This document shows, one piece after another, positions 33,216-42,083 of a stretch of DNA of 64,000 nucleotides. The DNA comes from Acidobacteriota bacterium (GTDB taxonomy: Bacteria; Acidobacteriota; Vicinamibacteria; Marinacidobacterales; Marinacidobacteraceae), in the NCBI GenBank assembly GCA_022820545.1, contig JAJEFG010000032.1, forward strand, positions 1 to 64,000, written 5' to 3'. A program made the translations under genes and the position numbers. The notes under the pieces were generated by a model. The model was not told the DNA's origin. It ran no database searches and saw only the letters and a list, made by a program, of their open reading frames with translations. The stretch's first letter is position 1; each line of letters opens with the position of its first letter.

Positions 33216-34289
33216 ATGGTCCGCCCCTTCCGCTGGGACTCCGAGCGCAAGGTCCTCCACCTCCTGGACCAGCGCCGGCTCCCCTCCGAGGAGACGTGGA
33301 TCGAGTGCGCCGAAGCGGACCAGGTTGGGGACGCGATCCGCGAGATGGTCGTTCGCGGGGCCCCGGCCATCGGCATCGCGGCCGCGTACGCGCTGGTGCT
33401 GGGGTTCGTCCGTGACGCCGGGGACTCGCCCGCGGCCCGGTTCGAGGACCTGGCCGCCGGACTGCTGAATACCCGGCCCACCGCCGTCAACCTGGGGGCC
33501 GCTATCGCGCGCATGCGCACCCGGCTGGAAGCGCTCTCCAGCGCTTCGGCCGCGGAACGGGTTCGCGGACTGGAGGCGGAGGCGGACCGGATCGCCGCCG
33601 AGGACCTGCAGGCGAACCGCCGCCTTGGCGCGCTCGGCGCCGGCCTGCTGCCTCGCGAGGGGCCAGCCCGCGTCCTGACCCACTGCAACGCGGGAAGCCT
33701 CGCCACCTCGGGCTACGGGACCGCCCTCGGCGTCGTCCGGGCGCTGGTCGAGTCGGGCCGCGAGGTGCAGGTATTTGCCCCCGAAACCCGGCCCTATCTG
33801 CAGGGCGCCCGGCTCACCGCCTGGGAACTGATGGCGGACCAAATCCCGGTCACCCTCGTCACCGACGGAATGGTTGGTTCCCTGCTCGCCGGCGGGGACA
33901 TGGACGCCGTCATCGTGGGCGCCGATCGGATCGCGGCGAACGGGGATTCCGCCAACAAGATCGGCACCTACCAGGCTGCGGTCCTCGCGAAGGAACACGG
34001 CGTGCCGTTCCTGGTGGCCGCGCCCTTTTCGAGCGTGGATCTCGAGACGCCCACCGGTGCGGAGATCCCCATCGAGGAACGCCAGCCCGAGGAAATCGTG
34101 GAGATCGCCGGAAGGCGGATCGCCCCGGAGGGCGTTCCCGTCTGGAATCCGGCCTTCGACGTGACTCCGGCCCGCTACATCACCGCGATCGTCACGGAAC
34201 GGGGCGTCGCCCGCCCGCCTTTCGCGGCATCCCTCGCCCGTTTTGCCGCGACTCCCGGAAACGCGCCAGCAGATATGACAGCGATTTGA
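33216..34289 (+). CDS. mtnA: S-methyl-5-thioribose-1-phosphate isomerase
   Basis: MVVRGAPAIGIAAAYALVLG, LTHCNAGSLATSGYGTALGVVRA, VGADRIAANGDSANKIGTYQAAVLAKEHGVPFLVAAP. Confidence 0.92.
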   Translation: MVRPFRWDSERKVLHLLDQRRLPSEETWIECAEADQVGDAIREMVVRGAPAIGIAAAYALVLGFVRDAGDSPAARFEDLAAGLLNTRPTAVNLGAAIARMRTRLEALSSASAAERVRGLEAEADRIAAEDLQANRRLGALGAGLLPREGPARVLTHCNAGSLATSGYGTALGVVRALVESGREVQVFAPETRPYLQGARLTAWELMADQIPVTLVTDGMVGSLLAGGDMDAVIVGADRIAANGDSANKIGTYQAAVLAKEHGVPFLVAAPFSSVDLETPTGAEIPIEERQPEEIVEIAGRRIAPEGVPVWNPAFDVTPARYITAIVTERGVARPPFAASLARFAATPGNAPADMTAI

Positions 34290-34326
34290 TAACGTATCGA
34301 TGTCAAACCGCTGCGGAGGTGCTGTC

Positions 34327-35034
34327 ATGGGTAACCTTACGATCCGAAACTTGGCCGATTCTGTAATTCAGGCGCTCAAGGCGGAGGCCAGGGCGAACGA
34401 ACGTTCGATGGAAGCCGAGGCTCGCCGCGCGCTGACCGAGCGATTCGACCGGATCCAGCGGATGGTTCGGCTTCGGGAGCGCACCGATGCGCTTTCGCGG
34501 GCCACCGAAGGGATTCCACAAACCGATAGCGTCCTGCTGCTGCGCGAAGACCGAACGAGCCTGAAGGAGAAGTCAGTTGCCGAACTCCTCGCTCTCCAAG
34601 TCGCGGTCTTGAAGAAGCTGCGCGCGCGCAGAGTGCTGAGAACGGAGAACAATCCGACCGGCGATCTTGCGGAGTACCTGTTTTGCGCCGCCTACGGGTG
34701 GGAACATGAACCCGGGAAAGCGCTTGATGCGACAGACGCGGATGGCAAGCGGTACCAGATCAAGGGACGCCGCCTCGCTCGCCGCGATTCCTCTCGGCAG
34801 CTTTCGGCAATCCGCGATCTCGACGGGTTCGACATCCTTGCCGCGGTGCTATTCGACGAAAACTACCGCGTGGTGCGGGCGGCCCTGATCCCGGTCGGCG
34901 TCGTTCGCGACCATTCCAAGTACGCCGAGCACACAAACAGTCACACGTTCCTTCTGCAGGACCAGGTGTGGGACGCGCCCGATGTCATCGACGCCACGGA
35001 TTGTCTCCGGGTGCAGGAAGCGCTCTATTCTTGA
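34327..35034 (+). CDS. FitA-like RHH domain fused to DUF6998-like putative nuclease domain
   Basis: MGNLTIRNLADSVIQALKAEARANERSMEAEARRALTERF (RHH) then GDLAEYLFCAAYGW...ALDATDADGKRYQIKGRRLARRDSSRQLSAIRDLDGFDILAAVLFDENYRVVRAALIP. Confidence 0.72.
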   Translation: MGNLTIRNLADSVIQALKAEARANERSMEAEARRALTERFDRIQRMVRLRERTDALSRATEGIPQTDSVLLLREDRTSLKEKSVAELLALQVAVLKKLRARRVLRTENNPTGDLAEYLFCAAYGWEHEPGKALDATDADGKRYQIKGRRLARRDSSRQLSAIRDLDGFDILAAVLFDENYRVVRAALIPVGVVRDHSKYAEHTNSHTFLLQDQVWDAPDVIDATDCLRVQEALYS

Positions 35035-35121: not shown

Positions 35122-36186
35122 ATGCTCATCCTCGGCATCGAGACCTCCTGCGACGAGACCTCGGCGGCAGTGGTCCAGGACGGCCGGCGCATCCTGTCGA
35201 ACGTCGTCTCGTCCCAGGTTGCCCAGCACGCGCAGTTCGGAGGGGTGGTGCCCGAGATCGCTTCCCGGCAGCACCTCCTCAACCTGTCGCCGGTGGTGCG
35301 GCAAGCGCTGAGCGAGGCCGAGGTTGGCCTCGATGACATCGAGGCGGTGGCGGTCACGAACGGTCCGGGCCTCATCGGAGCCCTGCTTGCCGGCGTCTCC
35401 TTCGCCAAGGCGTTTGCCTTCGCGCGCGGGATTCCGCTCGTGGGCGTGGACCACATCGAAGGGCACATCCGGGCTTGCTACCTCGAAGGCGGCGAGGTTC
35501 CCCATCCCGCGCTCGCGCTCGTGGTCTCCGGGGGGCACACGAACCTCTTCCTGCTCGAGGCCGAGAGTTCCTACCGGTTGCTCGGCAAGACCCGCGACGA
35601 CGCGGCGGGGGAGGCCTACGACAAGCTCGCCAAGCGGCTCGGGCTCGGGTACCCGGGGGGTCCGATCCTCGACCGGTTGGCGCAGCGCGGCAATGCGAGC
35701 CGCCACCTCTTCTCGCTCCCGCACTTTTCGGACGGGGCAAAGCTGGACTTCAGTTTCTCGGGCCTCAAGACCCAGGTTCTCCGGCTCATCGAGCACGAGG
35801 GCATCGAGCCGCTCGCCGAGGGCGACGATCCTTTCGCCCGCGAAGACCTCCGCGACCTCGCCGCCAGCTTCCAGTCGGCGGTCGTCCGCGCCCTGCGCCG
35901 GTCGGTGGACCGGGCGCTTCGCATGTTCGAGGTGAAGGCCGTGCTGTTGACCGGCGGGGTCGCCGCCAACTCGGCCCTGCGGGCCAACTTCCAGACGCTC
36001 GGCGAGGAGCGCGGCCTGCCGGTCTTCTATCCCACCATCGCCCTCTCCACCGACAACGCCGCCATGATCGCGGCGGCCGGTCACCTGGCGCTTCTCCGCG
36101 GCGAGACCGCGGGCCCCGATCTCACCGCGGATACCGAACTGCGGCTCGGCGAGACCGGGCCACGCCGGTCCCGGCGCCACCGCTGA
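35122..36186 (+). CDS. tsaD: tRNA N6-adenosine threonylcarbamoyltransferase
   Basis: MLILGIETSCDETSAAVV, GVVPEIASRQHL, VDHIEGHIRA, VVSGGHTNLFL. Confidence 0.95.
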   Translation: MLILGIETSCDETSAAVVQDGRRILSNVVSSQVAQHAQFGGVVPEIASRQHLLNLSPVVRQALSEAEVGLDDIEAVAVTNGPGLIGALLAGVSFAKAFAFARGIPLVGVDHIEGHIRACYLEGGEVPHPALALVVSGGHTNLFLLEAESSYRLLGKTRDDAAGEAYDKLAKRLGLGYPGGPILDRLAQRGNASRHLFSLPHFSDGAKLDFSFSGLKTQVLRLIEHEGIEPLAEGDDPFAREDLRDLAASFQSAVVRALRRSVDRALRMFEVKAVLLTGGVAANSALRANFQTLGEERGLPVFYPTIALSTDNAAMIAAAGHLALLRGETAGPDLTADTELRLGETGPRRSRRHR

Positions 36187-36188
36187 TC

Positions 36189-37763
36189 GTGGACCCATAC
36201 GAGAGCCGGCCCGATCCCGACCGGGTCACGGCCGTCTACCGCGTTCGCCCGGGGGCGGCCGCGCCCGAGGAACTCGCCCGCCTCATCGCGATCGAGCAGA
36301 CCGTCGAGATTCCGGAGGCGCTCATTCCGCCGGGGCGGATCCAGGACGAGATCGTCGGCCGGGTCGAGTCGGTGACCTGCGAACCCGAGGACCCGGGCGC
36401 GCACCGCATCACGATCAGCTACGGAGCCGAACTGGCCCGGGATCTCTTCGGACTGCTGGCGGTCGCGATCGGCAACGCCCCCATGTATGGCGGGGTGCGG
36501 CTCGTGGAACTGCAACCGCCGCGGGCGCTGCTCGATTCTCTTCCCGGCCCCAATCACGGCGTGGAGGGTGTGCGGCGGATGTGCGGAGTCCTGGGACGGC
36601 CGCTGCTGGCCACCGCGCTCAAGCCGCAGGGATCGAGCGTCGCCGAACTTGCGGCCATCGGCGAGGCGTTCGCCCGCGGCGGCGGCGACCTGGTGAAGGA
36701 CGACCAGAACCTCACCGATCCCTTCGAGGCCTTTCGCTCCCGCGTGCTCGCGTGCGCCGAGGCCGTGGACCGCGGCAACCAGGCCACCGGCCGGAGGTGC
36801 CTCTACCTCCCACACGTCGGCGCCCGCGCCGAGGAACTCGAGCGGTACGTCGAGTTCGTCGCCGAGGCCGGGCTTCCCGGGGTCCTGGTCTGTCCGATGA
36901 TCACCGGGCTCGACGCCGTGCGCGCCCTGGCGGAGCGCTATCCGCTCATCTTCCTGGGACATCCGTCGCTGACCGGGGTCTATACCCATGCCCCCGACCA
37001 CGGGGTGGGCCACGGCGTTCTTCTGGGGACCCTGTTCCGGCTGGCCGGCGCCGACGTTTCGGTGTTCCCGGACGCGGGCGGCCGCTTTCAGTACACCGAA
37101 GCTGCCTGCGCGGAGATCAAGAGCCGCCTCCGCGAGCCGCTCGGAGGGCTCCGGCCCGCGTGGCCGGCGCCCGCCGGCGGGATGGGACCCGCCGATGTCG
37201 GCCGCATCTCAACGACCTACGGCCCGGACACGGTGCTGCTGATCGGCGGCGCCCTGCTCGGCCATCCAGACGGAATCGAAGCGGGAACCGGCGAGATCCT
37301 CGACCGCATTCGCGAGGTCCACCCGGAGGTGTCCATCGAGCCCGCCGAGACGCCGCTGTCCTCGTTGCCCGAGCCGAGACGCCTGGCCTTCCGGAAGGAC
37401 TGGAACTGGGAGGGCCGGAACAGTTCGCCCTACAAGGACGCCGGCGACCTCGCCTTCCGGGGCGTGCGGCGGGTCGAGCTGGTCGGCAGGTTCGGGGAGC
37501 GCACGCGCTCCGACCTGCGCTACTTCGAGGTCGAGCCGGGCGGCCACACGAGCCTCGAGAAGCACGTCCACACCCACGTCGTCATCGGGGCCCGCGGCGA
37601 AGGGGTCCTCCTGCTCGGAGACCGCCGGATGCCGCTCAAACACCTCGACGTGGCCTGTGTCGGTCCCCTGGAGGCCCACCAGTTGCGGAACGAGACCGAG
37701 GAGCCGTTCGGCTTCTTCTGCGTCGTGGACCACGACCGCGACCGCCCCATGCGGGCGGGATAG
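36189..37763 (+). CDS. RuBisCO-like protein (form IV) with C-terminal cupin domain
   Basis: RLP: GRPLLATALKPQGSS, GGGDLVKDDQNLTDPFEAF, LGHPSLTGVY, PAGGMGPADVGRISTTYGPDTVLLIGGALLGHPDGI. Cupin: GGHTSLEKHVHTHVVIGARGEGVLLLGDRRMPLKHLDVACVGPLEAHQLRNETEEP. GTG start 3 nt after the tsaD stop. Confidence 0.9.
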   Translation: MDPYESRPDPDRVTAVYRVRPGAAAPEELARLIAIEQTVEIPEALIPPGRIQDEIVGRVESVTCEPEDPGAHRITISYGAELARDLFGLLAVAIGNAPMYGGVRLVELQPPRALLDSLPGPNHGVEGVRRMCGVLGRPLLATALKPQGSSVAELAAIGEAFARGGGDLVKDDQNLTDPFEAFRSRVLACAEAVDRGNQATGRRCLYLPHVGARAEELERYVEFVAEAGLPGVLVCPMITGLDAVRALAERYPLIFLGHPSLTGVYTHAPDHGVGHGVLLGTLFRLAGADVSVFPDAGGRFQYTEAACAEIKSRLREPLGGLRPAWPAPAGGMGPADVGRISTTYGPDTVLLIGGALLGHPDGIEAGTGEILDRIREVHPEVSIEPAETPLSSLPEPRRLAFRKDWNWEGRNSSPYKDAGDLAFRGVRRVELVGRFGERTRSDLRYFEVEPGGHTSLEKHVHTHVVIGARGEGVLLLGDRRMPLKHLDVACVGPLEAHQLRNETEEPFGFFCVVDHDRDRPMRAG

Positions 37764-37788: not shown

Positions 37789-38271
37789 TCAGGCTGGATC
37801 CAAAGCGCTCATGAAGCGCTCGAACCGTCCGAGATCTCGTGTGACCAGCGGATGGGCCTGCCGCAGTTTGGCGATGAGAAAATCCAGGCGATCCCAGTCG
37901 TATTCCAGCTCGACGTAGTAGCGCTTGAAGTGGCGGAACCGGAGTAGTTCCGAAAGTGGGGACAACGCAGTCTCCGACACCGCCGCCACCCGCACCCCCT
38001 CGATCTCCAGGGTCATCTTCTCCAGCAGGTCCTTGTGCCAGCGATCCGGCGCGAGATCGTTCTCGAAGTGCTGCGAGATGCGCAGGAAGACGGTCTCAAG
38101 GCAGGTGTAGTAGTTCTTCAGCAGGCCGGCGGCGATGAGAGCAGACGCCGGCGTCCTGCCGAGCCGGACGATCTCGTCGGCGAGCGCGTCCTCGAGGGCG
38201 TCCCGAACTGCTTCCAGCCGCTGCCGGTGGAGGGCGACGAGGGCCGTGAGCTCACGGATCGCTGCGTTCAT
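37789..38271 (-). CDS. HepT-like HEPN toxin
   Basis: ALIAAGLLKNYYTCLETVFLRISQHFEN...LRFRHFKRYYVELEYDWDRL; overlaps an upstream MNT nucleotidyltransferase gene. Confidence 0.75.
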   Translation of the reverse strand: MNAAIRELTALVALHRQRLEAVRDALEDALADEIVRLGRTPASALIAAGLLKNYYTCLETVFLRISQHFENDLAPDRWHKDLLEKMTLEIEGVRVAAVSETALSPLSELLRFRHFKRYYVELEYDWDRLDFLIAKLRQAHPLVTRDLGRFERFMSALDPA

Positions 38272-38641
38272 GGACCAGTGCGCCCCCCGTGCGAATGCGC
38301 TCGGCGATGTCCTCGGGCACCTTCTCCAGTTCGATCACGTCCACCGGAAGGGTCGTTCCGTCCGTCGCGATACCAAGCGTCCGAAAGAACTCGGCCGGCC
38401 CGCGCAGCCCCTCAACCGCAATGTCAATGTCCGAGATCTCGCTGAACCGCGACCGATCGAGCAGTGAACCCCACTGGTAGATGCGGCGCGGGTTCACCTG
38501 TTCCGCGATTGCCGCGACGATTGCGCTTGCGTCCCGGGTGGCTCGCTCGAAGCGCACGCCAATTCGCGCCCGGCGACGCCTTTCCTTCTCCGCCTGAAAT
38601 GCCCGGGCTCGATCGAGATCGATGGCGAACTCGTTGTCCAT
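38252..38641 (-). CDS. MntA-like nucleotidyltransferase antitoxin
   Basis: YQWGSLLDRSRFSEISDIDIAVEGL, the NTase GS...DxD motif; ATG at 38641. Confidence 0.8.
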   Translation of the reverse strand: MDNEFAIDLDRARAFQAEKERRRRARIGVRFERATRDASAIVAAIAEQVNPRRIYQWGSLLDRSRFSEISDIDIAVEGLRGPAEFFRTLGIATDGTTLPVDVIELEKVPEDIAERIRTGGALVHERSDP

Positions 38642-38714
38642 CACCTCAGTATAAGTGGCGGAAACGCGCCCTTCCGGCGGCCGGTTCCGGGGATCCGGCC
38701 ACCGGTCCGCCGGC

Positions 38715-41700
38715 CTAAGCGACCTCCTCCGCGTGTTCGCGGAATCGGCAGAACGCGTTGGCGAGCCGCATCTGGTGCGGCGTCTTGCACTCGGGAAAAA
38801 AGAGTTCCGGGCTCGCGACCACGACCGCAAGGCAGCGGGCGCGGGAAGTCGCCACGTTGAGCCGGTTCAGCGAGTAGAGGAAGTCCATCCCCCGCGGGGC
38901 CGCATCCGGGGTCGAGGTGGCGAGCGAGTAGAAGACCACCGGGGCTTCCTGTCCCTGGAACTTGTCCACGGTTCCCACCCGAGCCCGTCCGTCGAGGACC
39001 CCGGCGAGGCGGTCCACCTGGGCGTTGTAGGGAGCGACGATCAGGATGTCCTCGGGGGTGATCCGCCGGGTCGCTCCACCGGCGTCCGTCCAGGAAGCGG
39101 CATCGAGCAGCCCGGCGACGAGCGACGCGATCCGGCCGGCCTCTTCCGGTGACTCGCGCTGGTTCCCGTCGTGCTCGACGGGGACGAAACGAAGCCCGGC
39201 GCCGGGGAGCGGACCTCCGGCAATCGTCTGCCGCTTTAGTCCGGGCCGCGACCCGAGTCGGTCGTCGTAGAAGAGTTCCGAGGTGAACCGGCCGATGTCG
39301 GGGTGCATCCGCCAGGTGTGGTCGAGGAAGAGGCCGCGTTCCGGTGGAATCGTCTTCTCTCCGGCAAGCAGGTGGCCGAGCGCGGAGGCGGAGGATCCCT
39401 CCGGGTGGATCCCCTGGGTGACCTGATCGAGCTGGCGCGGATCGCCGAGCAGGACGAGGCTCGCCGCGGCCGGCGCGGAGGCGAGGGCGCCCGCGAGGGA
39501 GAACTGTCCGGCTTCGTCCACCACCAGCACGTCCACCGCGTCCTGCATGTCCTCCCGCGCCCAGACCCAGGTCGTGCCCGCGATCAGCCGCACATCCGGG
39601 TCTTGGACGGCGTCGACGGCGTTTCCGGAACCCGCCTTCCGTTCGATGCGGTGATCGGCGCAGCCTGCGTGCGAGGCGATCTGAACTCCCTGGAACGCGA
39701 CGCCCTCCTCATCGGCGGCGGCGCAGACCTGGTCGAGCAGGTTGGTGATGACCTGGTGGCTCTGCGCCGTCACCCCCACCCGCCGGCCAGCCGCCAGGAG
39801 CGCAGTGATGACGCGGGCGCCGAGGTAGGTCTTGCCGCTTCCCGGCGGCCCTTGCACCGGCAGCACCTCCCGGTCGAGGCCGAGCGCCAGGCGCCTGGCC
39901 CCGTGAACCAGGTCTTCCCCGGGCTGCACCAGGGGTGTGCCGTTGCCCCCATTCCGCGGCGGAACCCTCCGGAGCAGATCGAACGCGGCGCGCCGCGGGT
40001 GGCCGTCCGGGAATCCCTGCTCGGCAACCAACTCGCCCAGGCGGAACAGGGAATCGCGCATCGTGCGGGTGGGCAGAATGTCCACCGGAACGAGCGCCGC
40101 GGGATGGGGCTGGAGCACCTTCCGGCGGCTGCGCTTCAGGATCAGCGCGTCCTCGGCCATCTCGAAGACCTCGCCGGGCGACGCTCCCGTCGCGGGGTCG
40201 CGGACGCTCGTGCCGACGTCGATTCCATGGTCCTGGGGCGGAAACCGGTAGTGATGGAGTACGGACTGCTTCTCGGGGCCGATCTCCGCCTCGAACGCCA
40301 GACCGCCCAGCGTCGTCCGTTCCTCGAAGAGTTGCTCGGCATCCAGCCCGCAGAGGTGGAAGAACTCCCACCACGCCGATTTGTCCTCCCGCCGGTGGTA
40401 GTCGAGGAGGAATCGCAGGAGTTGCCGGGCCTCGGACTCGTCCGGTGGACCGCCGGACACGAGGCGGGTCCCGAGGTGTTCGACCCGCGCCGCGGCCTCG
40501 CTCTGCTCGAGCTCCTTTTCCGGCGCGATCTCGACGGTCGGGCGACTCCGCGGGCCGATCTCGCGGGTGAGTTCCCGGCGCAGGTCCTCGAGCCAGTCGT
40601 GGAGCGCGAGGGTGGAAAGGCAGTCCTCGCGGTTGTAGCGCCGGATGACCTCCAGGTCGGCCGCCTCCGCGCGGCCGCCCGAGTCCAGTGCGGTGTCCAT
40701 CCGGGCGCGCGCCCGGATGGACTCGATGAGGTCCTGTTTCCGGGTGAACCCGTAGAACCGTTCCATTTCCTTCAGGGAGTAGCTCTCCACCGACGCAACC
40801 AGCCCCTGCCGGACCACCTGGAGGAGGTCCACGAACACGTGGTGGCGAAGGAGCACGTCCATCGCGTCCTCGCGGCTCGCGTAGCGGCTCATCAGGCGCT
40901 TCAGCGCCCCGGTCTCGTAGCCCCCGTAGTGGTAGACGTGGAGACCTCCGAACCGTTCCCGCCGCTCGGCCACCAGGTCCATGAAGGACTCGAAGACCTC
41001 GCGCTCTCCGCCGCGGTCGAAAGCCCAGCGGTCGTCATAGTCGCCGTCCCGATCCACGAGGCCGAAGAGGTACTCGAGGCCGCCGTCCGCCGTCGGCCGG
41101 GAACTCTCGATGTCGAAGAACAGGTCGCCGTCGGAAGGCTCGGGGAGCGCGAGCAGACCGCGGCCCTCCTCCGGCGGTGCGGTCAGCTCGCGAAAGGGCC
41201 GGCCCGACGCGCGCTCGGTGAGCTGCGCCTTCGCCTGGCGATGGATGCGCTTCAGCGAGGCGGGCTGGACCCCGTCGAGCGGCGGGTCGAGGGGCAGGGC
41301 GATCCCGGCCAGCGCCGCCAGGGTCGTGATGCCGCGGTCTTCCAGGCGCCGGCGCTGGTGGCGGGAAGCTCCGGCAACCAGCGAGAGGTGGTCGTCCGCC
41401 CGTCGCCGATCGCGGCACACCTGGGTCCAGTCGCAGCGGGGGCACAGGTCCACGGGCTCCGGATAGGTCGGCCCCGGGTCCGTGCAGTGGCCCTCGAACT
41501 GCCGCCGGAGCGCGCGTTCGAATGCCGCGAAGTCCGCAACGCGGAAAGGCTCCACATCGCCGGCGCCGCCGAGCGCTAGGTGCATTTCGACCGGCGCCGC
41601 TCCCTGCACCTGCTCCAGCAGCCACGAATACACCGCGATCTGCAGGACGGCGTCCGCTTTCGCGACCGCTGCGAGTTTGGCGTCCACCACCTCGTAGGAC

Positions 41701-42083
41701 CAGTCACCGAGCGCGCTCGGGCGTCGGGCGCGGACCAGGAAATCGGGGTAGCCGCCCCACTTCCCGCGGCCGAGCCTCCCCTGGTGGACCACCTCCACGC
41801 CGCGCCGCATGGCGTCGAGGGTCCGCTCGCTTCGTTCCGCGAAACCTCCGGACGCGCCGATGGTCTCGATGGTGCGCCCTCTGATGCGCAATCGCTCGAG
41901 CACTCGGGCCTCGTGCTCCTGCCCTGCCTCGGCGAGCGCGTCGCGGCGGGGGTCTTCGAAGATGGGTGGCGGGGACGTCTCTCCGAGCGCGACGCTCCGG
42001 GAGAGGCTCGTCAGGCGCCGGCAGGCGAGGAAACGGCTGAGGTCGGTGGGAGCGAAGAAGAGTTTGCCGTTTCGTGCGCGCAT
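38715..42083 (-). CDS. TM0106-like RecB-family nuclease/RNase H-like domain fused to SF1 (UPF1-like) helicase
   Basis: Nuclease part with CPRCDWTQVCRDRR; DLFFDIESSRP; Walker A VQGPPGSGKTYLGARV; VLVVDEAGQFSLAGAL; VGTVDKFQGQEAPVVFYSLATS. Confidence 0.85.
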   Translation of the reverse strand: MRARNGKLFFAPTDLSRFLACRRLTSLSRSVALGETSPPPIFEDPRRDALAEAGQEHEARVLERLRIRGRTIETIGASGGFAERSERTLDAMRRGVEVVHQGRLGRGKWGGYPDFLVRARRPSALGDWSYEVVDAKLAAVAKADAVLQIAVYSWLLEQVQGAAPVEMHLALGGAGDVEPFRVADFAAFERALRRQFEGHCTDPGPTYPEPVDLCPRCDWTQVCRDRRRADDHLSLVAGASRHQRRRLEDRGITTLAALAGIALPLDPPLDGVQPASLKRIHRQAKAQLTERASGRPFRELTAPPEEGRGLLALPEPSDGDLFFDIESSRPTADGGLEYLFGLVDRDGDYDDRWAFDRGGEREVFESFMDLVAERRERFGGLHVYHYGGYETGALKRLMSRYASREDAMDVLLRHHVFVDLLQVVRQGLVASVESYSLKEMERFYGFTRKQDLIESIRARARMDTALDSGGRAEAADLEVIRRYNREDCLSTLALHDWLEDLRRELTREIGPRSRPTVEIAPEKELEQSEAAARVEHLGTRLVSGGPPDESEARQLLRFLLDYHRREDKSAWWEFFHLCGLDAEQLFEERTTLGGLAFEAEIGPEKQSVLHHYRFPPQDHGIDVGTSVRDPATGASPGEVFEMAEDALILKRSRRKVLQPHPAALVPVDILPTRTMRDSLFRLGELVAEQGFPDGHPRRAAFDLLRRVPPRNGGNGTPLVQPGEDLVHGARRLALGLDREVLPVQGPPGSGKTYLGARVITALLAAGRRVGVTAQSHQVITNLLDQVCAAADEEGVAFQGVQIASHAGCADHRIERKAGSGNAVDAVQDPDVRLIAGTTWVWAREDMQDAVDVLVVDEAGQFSLAGALASAPAAASLVLLGDPRQLDQVTQGIHPEGSSASALGHLLAGEKTIPPERGLFLDHTWRMHPDIGRFTSELFYDDRLGSRPGLKRQTIAGGPLPGAGLRFVPVEHDGNQRESPEEAGRIASLVAGLLDAASWTDAGGATRRITPEDILIVAPYNAQVDRLAGVLDGRARVGTVDKFQGQEAPVVFYSLATSTPDAAPRGMDFLYSLNRLNVATSRARCLAVVVASPELFFPECKTPHQMRLANAFCRFREHAEEVA

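Follow-up and report, generated by a model that had tools for sequence, protein, structure and literature searches.

A RuBisCO-like protein fused to a methylsulfurylase-type cupin: a probable bifunctional MTA-isoprenoid shunt enzyme

The MTA-isoprenoid shunt converts methylthioadenosine (MTA), a by-product left over when methionine is used, into an isoprenoid building block. Two of its steps are performed by a RuBisCO-like protein (RLP) and a cupin, as in the pairs Rru_A1998/Rru_A2000 and RPA2169/RPA2170 (PMC4958253, PMC5893883). We analyzed a stretch of 64,000 nucleotides from an Acidobacteriota genome (contig JAJEFG010000032.1; here called the window) in which an RLP and a cupin appear to be encoded by one gene, and asked whether that gene could carry both steps on a single polypeptide. 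A preliminary description, made from the letters of the DNA, had proposed that it does. Our analysis indicates that the fusion is probably a bifunctional MTA-isoprenoid shunt enzyme, with both activities, their order and the use of 1-deoxyxylulose-5-P (DXP) assigned by homology. The gene is then a bifunctional version of a known two-enzyme shunt; the chemistry itself is not new.

Architecture and spread of the fusion gene

The fusion gene (36189..37763, + strand) begins with a GTG codon two bases past the tsaD stop, and it translates to 524 aa in a single frame with no internal stop. A RuBisCO-like domain, classed as DeepYkr type (about residues 9-383; 36213..37337, +), is followed by a short linker (residues 384-393; 37338..37367, +; pLDDT <50) and by a cupin domain, classed as methylsulfurylase type (about residues 394-524; 37368..37760, +). 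Pfam matches fall inside both parts, with RuBisCO_large (PF00016) at residues 126-367 (1.2e-23) and Cupin_2 (PF07883) at residues 445-513 (2.3e-6). The AlphaFold model of the full fusion, built on a 53-row alignment, has a mean pLDDT of 91.6, with high confidence in both domains and the linker as its single floppy stretch. Codon-position GC is coding-like in the RLP part and the cupin part alike. The fusion is the sole RuBisCO-type gene that our search detected in its own genome, and scans of the locus for promoters, terminators and repeats revealed no notable feature.

Because other lineages carry the two genes adjacent but separate, such a frame could be an accident of assembly or annotation. 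When 85,462 species genomes were scanned, 13 further full-length fusions, 48-92% identical to this one, came up in Acidobacteria (L002-L008; six at 83-92% and one at 65% identity), Gammaproteobacteria (L009 and L011-L014; 48-53%) and Planctomycetes (L010; 48%). The same unbroken frame is thus found on 14 separate contigs from three phyla, including one complete chromosome (OY282433.1, L011). The fused RLP halves form a single clade (support 99/95), as do the fused cupin halves (100/99), and an accident has almost no probability left. The in-frame fusion is real and not a chance read-through. The RLP-then-cupin order in one reading frame, which the preliminary description had reported, is borne out by the stop-free frame, by Pfam, by AlphaFold and by the 13 further fusions.

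The fusion is also old. Save for the variable Gln of KDDQ, none of the catalytic motifs in either part differs among the 14 fusions. When fused and unfused RLP/cupin pairs were thinned to 14, the distance matrices of the two parts were correlated with r = 0.79, a value reached in none of 5000 permutations. The persistence of two shunt enzymes on one chain across three phyla is a strong and independent indication that the two function together. The preliminary description knew of no such fusion, and our search, made in the literature, likewise gave no description of one.

Within the fused RLP clade there is also an Elusimicrobia protein (L015) that stops short of the cupin and has no adjoining cupin gene. 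Its RLP nests among fused ones and no cupin lies beside it, so its cupin half was likely lost.

Identity of the two domains

The closest PDB sequence to the RLP part is 3qfw (1.1e-59; 38% identity), an R. palustris RLP other than RLP2; the same entry is the structure best covered by the RLP model (Foldseek, TM 0.93). The tree has 59 rows. In it, a 36-row clade (support 100/99) unites the fusion RLPs with 3qfw, and a nested 27-row clade (100/98) takes in the fusion RLPs together with every cupin-linked RLP that we found. Outside the 36-row clade lie MtnW, the photo RLPs (1tel, 2qyg), the OiaX/non-photo group with 3nwr, and RuBisCO forms I and III. Judged by its sequence, the RLP part is assigned to the DeepYkr type, the clade that holds the R. 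palustris RLP of 5-methylthioribulose-1-P isomerase type, where DeepYkr is represented in the tree by R. palustris 3qfw and the R. rubrum RLP is not among the rows. R. palustris RLP1 belongs to the DeepYkr clade and performs the 1,3-isomerisation of 5-methylthioribulose-1-P (PMC5893883).

Other RLP identities were considered and rejected. An MtnW identity is contradicted by a score of 139.6 bits against a cut-off of 513.6, and an OiaX/non-photo identity by 83.8 bits against 700; in both cases the tree agrees. The tree likewise places the RLP away from the photo RLPs and from true RuBisCO of forms I and III. The placement in a form IV tree that had been proposed as a check thus puts the domain outside the OiaX and MtnW clades and inside that of 3qfw.

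The EQTVE, ALKPxG, KDD[HQN] and GRF motifs are common to the fusions and the DeepYkr clade. Lys145 of ALKPQG (36621..36623, +), aligned with the active-site Lys of the RuBisCO superfamily, is invariant in the 14 fusions. The carbamylated-Lys and metal-ligand site reads K170-D171-D172-Q173 in the alignment (36696..36707, +). Its last position is Glu in RuBisCO, His in DeepYkr RLPs and Gln in most fusions, the exceptions being an acidobacterial Asn (L007) and the His of the planctomycete fusion. G298-R299-F300 (37080..37088, +), shared by all aligned DeepYkr RLPs, occupies the position of the RuBisCO loop-6 GKxEG, which is absent; the region reads GGRFQY. The KDDQ site and the missing loop-6 motif are therefore as first described. 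With Gln at the Glu-ligand position, and with GRF where RuBisCO has its loop-6 Lys, CO2 fixation by the fusion appears very unlikely, in agreement with the earlier view. The Gln is also a small departure from DeepYkr itself, and to that extent it counts against assignment to the shunt.

For the cupin part, the PDB matches by sequence are 3ibm (1e-30), 3jzv (2e-20) and 3kgz (2.5e-18), which correspond to H. halophila Hhal_0468, Rru_A2000 and an R. palustris cupin, respectively. A cupin-only model (pLDDT 90) has 3jzv as its top structural match in Foldseek, followed by 3kgz and 3ibm. Identity to Rru_A2000 and 3kgz is about 34-36% (36% to 3kgz). The metal motif E457-x-H459-x-H461-x-H463 (37557..37577, +) is invariant in the fusions; in the second motif, H497-Q498 (37677..37682, +), the His is invariant in the family; and C511 (37719..37721, +) is invariant in both the fusions and the Rru_A2000-type cupins. 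The ExHxHxH motif, the later His and the Cys are also present in 3jzv, 3kgz and 3ibm. Sequence and model together support a cupin of the methylsulfurylase (Rru_A2000) type, with a corresponding activity predicted from homology. In the MTA-isoprenoid shunt, Rru_A2000 serves as the 1-methylthioxylulose-5-P methylsulfurylase (PMC4958253). A cupin of the sugar-isomerase type, named beforehand as an outcome that would speak against the shunt, is not what the structural matches indicate.

Methionine salvage offers another pairing of these two folds, namely an MtnW-type enolase fused to a cupin resembling MtnD, the acireductone dioxygenase. The best NCBIfam match of the RLP part is indeed the MtnW family (NF007095, 185 bits), and MtnD is also a cupin. 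That score is far under its cut-off of 409, as are the 139.6 bits given above under theirs of 513.6, and the RLP branches outside the MtnW clade with support of 100/99. The cupin, for its part, has no acireductone dioxygenase match in Pfam, where only Cupin_2 and a weak AraC_binding match appear, and it matches Rru_A2000 instead. We regard a fusion of this kind as highly improbable, and an MtnD identity for the cupin was rejected.

Some genomes with related cupins, Nitrospirota included, have no DeepYkr RLP at all, and the cupin family is therefore broader than the shunt; like the modest identity to Rru_A2000 and 3kgz, this counts against the shunt assignment. One Rru_A2000-like cupin in such a genome (L022) adjoins metK-ahcY, and three others (L020, L030, L031) lie beside zinc-dependent dehydrogenases. 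Five genomes of one Acidobacteriota family (G058, G070, G103, G130 and G172) encode a methylsulfurylase-like cupin that is 43-45% identical; they have HMG-CoA reductase, no match to a DeepYkr RLP and no Dxs over the cut-off.

Genomic context and metabolic supply

The gene for the enzyme that would make the RLP substrate lies close by. mtnA (S-methyl-5-thioribose-1-phosphate isomerase; 33216..34289, +) scores 434.6 bits against the TIGR00512 cut-off of 279 and ends 1.9 kb upstream of the fusion on the same strand. The position and identity that had been claimed for mtnA thus stand, and the gene is kept upstream across the genus. Between the two lies tsaD (35122..36186, +; TIGR03723), which has this place throughout the genus and no metabolic link to the pathway. 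The genus retains the order mtnA-tsaD-fusion, uninterrupted in L002 and L006; the mtnA-tsaD gap holds a FitA-like ORF in the window and in L005, and extra DNA in L003 and L004 (with a PIN gene in L004). Outside the genus, no mtnA was seen beside the fusion, a point against the shunt assignment.

Other genes around the locus were noted in passing. The ORF in the mtnA-tsaD gap of the window (34300-35034) has a FitA-like ribbon-helix-helix N-terminus. Just downstream of the fusion, on the opposite strand (37789-38830, -), lie a HepT-like gene and a weak MntA-type nucleotidyltransferase partner, likely a toxin-antitoxin pair. The same strand carries a gene for a 1122-aa protein (38715-42083, -) with RNase_H_2 and AAA_11/AAA_12 helicase domains, which is found beside the fusion in L002 and L004 as well.

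Unfused relatives of the two domains offer a second view of their role. In one genome (G205), the gene order is speE-RLP-cupin, with SpeE scoring 337 bits against a cut-off of 249.55. In Fibrobacter (L017), it is cupin-metY-CoA-binding-RLP, with metY (O-acetylhomoserine sulfhydrylase) scoring 600 bits against 495.1, and in Terrarubrum it is RLP-cupin-cysE. These neighbours are predicted to make MTA, to use methanethiol or to assimilate sulfur, and they support the proposed function independently.

Sister RLPs have other surroundings. Four (L083, L084, L085 and L088) have no adjoining cupin and lie with sugar transporters. In Brucella anthropi (pOANT04) and Mariluticola, the cluster reads mtnK-mtnA-transketolase(N)-transketolase(C)-RLP; a Ponticoccus sister cluster has mtnA with no mtnK seen; and Vibrio nigripulchritudo has an FGGY kinase. 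Such clusters perhaps send methylthio- or deoxy-ketose phosphates down a different route. More distantly, a group of Acidobacteriota RuBisCO relatives (L052-L060, L063 and L064) branches beside forms I and III, and most of its members adjoin a gene for an MtnA/eIF2B-like isomerase, as in the archaeal AMP pathway.

The fusion could itself be a diverged shunt enzyme, with a Gln-type metal site and a distant cupin that act on another phosphorylated ketose. Nearly all fusions do have Gln or Asn at the ligand position, RLP-free relatives of the cupin sit beside metK-ahcY or zinc dehydrogenases, and related RLPs are encoded in operons of the mtnK-mtnA-transketolase kind or together with an FGGY kinase. 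Against a different substrate, mtnA is nearby in the genus, the planctomycete fusion retains the DeepYkr His within the same architecture, and, among characterised proteins, those nearest to the two domains are of the two shunt enzyme types. On balance, a different ketose is an unlikely substrate.

The steps that would supply MTA are weaker than the preliminary description had assumed. No MtnP scored over the TIGR01694 cut-off in any of the eight genus genomes, and the genus has no dedicated spermidine synthase (SpeE); the only spermidine-synthase-like match lies inside a >1000-aa MFS/spermidine-synthase-like membrane protein, and we rejected it. The genome of the window (G000) encodes a purine nucleoside phosphorylase (NF006054, 262.6 bits against a cut-off of 218). 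With no MtnP over the cut-off and no dedicated SpeE, the supply of MTA is therefore unproven. The shunt identity first proposed is thus upheld by the RLP clade, the cupin match and mtnA, and weakened at the MtnP and SpeE steps.

This profile of genes, a purine nucleoside phosphorylase with no MtnP over the cut-off and no dedicated SpeE, would also fit the salvage of 5-deoxyadenosine. The radical-SAM by-product 5'-deoxyadenosine would pass through a nucleoside phosphorylase and MtnA to 5-deoxyribulose-1-P, which the RLP would turn directly into DXP, leaving the cupin unneeded and MTA as a minor substrate or none. By chemical reasoning, the same 1,3-isomerisation on the 5-deoxy analogue would yield DXP itself, and enzymes of MTA salvage can have a second role in 5-deoxyribose metabolism (PMC6079011). 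Yet such a route leaves the cupin without a role, when neither its metal motif nor its Cys varies in any of the 14 fusions, and the ties of the unfused relatives to speE and metY point to methylthio chemistry. We give 5-deoxyadenosine salvage a small share of the probability and retain the MTA-isoprenoid shunt as the probable function.

Downstream, the fate of DXP bears on the isoprenoid part of the proposal. A check for dxs had been suggested, and no Dxs scored over the curated cut-off in any of the eight genus genomes, that of the window included. The Dxs-like matches in the latter were a PDH E1 beta, an E1 alpha/beta fusion and a transketolase, none of them Dxs. Dxr was over the cut-off in seven of the eight, and HMG-CoA reductase was found in none. 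The missing Dxs strengthens the isoprenoid link of the fusion; with neither Dxs nor HMG-CoA reductase and with Dxr present, the fusion may therefore feed the MEP pathway in the genus, as an attractive source of DXP.

Loss of Dxs is not, however, a trait of fusion carriers. Among 31 class-mates without an RLP-cupin, none has Dxs over the cut-off, all have Dxr and two have HMG-CoA reductase. Consequently, the fusion alone does not explain the absence of Dxs, and the class may have another source of DXP. The Vicinamibacteraceae genome with a fusion (L008) also had no Dxs that we could find. Six fusion carriers belong to other phyla. The planctomycete and four of the Gammaproteobacteria have Dxs, a point against the shunt assignment; in the fifth gammaproteobacterium (L013) no Dxs turned up. 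Many bacteria have an MEP pathway without Dxs, with the DXP source unknown for most; among 181 Dxs-lacking species counted, both shunt genes were present in only five (PMC10663253).

A stronger proposal is that this dxs-less, mevalonate-less genus obtains most or all of its DXP from the fused enzyme. Isoprenoids and DXP-derived cofactors would then be made from the ribose of SAM-derived nucleosides, and not from pyruvate and glyceraldehyde-3-P, with the intermediate turned over on one polypeptide. We consider this conceivable and somewhat doubtful. The genus is nonetheless a clean case for the question of how the MEP pathway runs without Dxs, as it combines dxr, no dxs, no HMG-CoA reductase and a fused shunt enzyme.

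Proposed mechanism and comparison with known systems

In the proposed mechanism, the MtnA product 5-methylthioribulose-1-P would enter the RLP site, where proton transfers would move the carbonyl in a 1,3-isomerisation and yield 1-methylthioxylulose-5-P. The metal cupin would take up this intermediate after its release, and a thiol would there remove the methylthio group, giving DXP and either methanethiol or a thiol adduct. Dxr would then pass DXP into the MEP pathway and on to isoprenoids. Channelling between the RLP and cupin sites, argued for in the preliminary description, may occur, with the fusion itself as the one observation in its favour. If both activities are present, one gene would serve as a tool to obtain DXP and methanethiol from MTA.

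Rhodospirillum rubrum uses the same two families in consecutive steps after MtnA, with Rru_A1998 as the RLP that acts as MTRu-1P 1,3-isomerase (PMC4958253, PMC5893883, PMC4334135). There, Rru_A1998 and Rru_A2000 are separate genes, whereas here the two are one chain. The fusion has Gln in place of the usual DeepYkr His at the RLP metal site, and the two Dxs isozymes of R. rubrum (PMC4958253) compare with none found in this genus. In vivo, the R. rubrum methylsulfurylase draws on glutathione, and what it sets free is a glutathione-methylthiol adduct (PMC4334135).

In Rhodopseudomonas palustris, RLP1 and the cupin (RPA2169-RPA2170) are again separate genes, with consecutive locus numbers, and deletion strains show the shunt in vivo (PMC5893883). 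The R. palustris structure 3qfw lies in the RLP clade of the fusion, and 3qfw and 3kgz may not be exactly RPA2169 and RPA2170. Halorhodospira halophila is among the species that have RLP and cupin genes in a similar order (PMC4958253); its Hhal_0468 (3ibm), the closest PDB sequence to the cupin part, is a separate protein. Tetrahymena MtnBD (PMC3698126) is also a fusion of methionine-salvage enzymes, but it joins a dehydratase to a dioxygenase and belongs to a different branch of the pathway.
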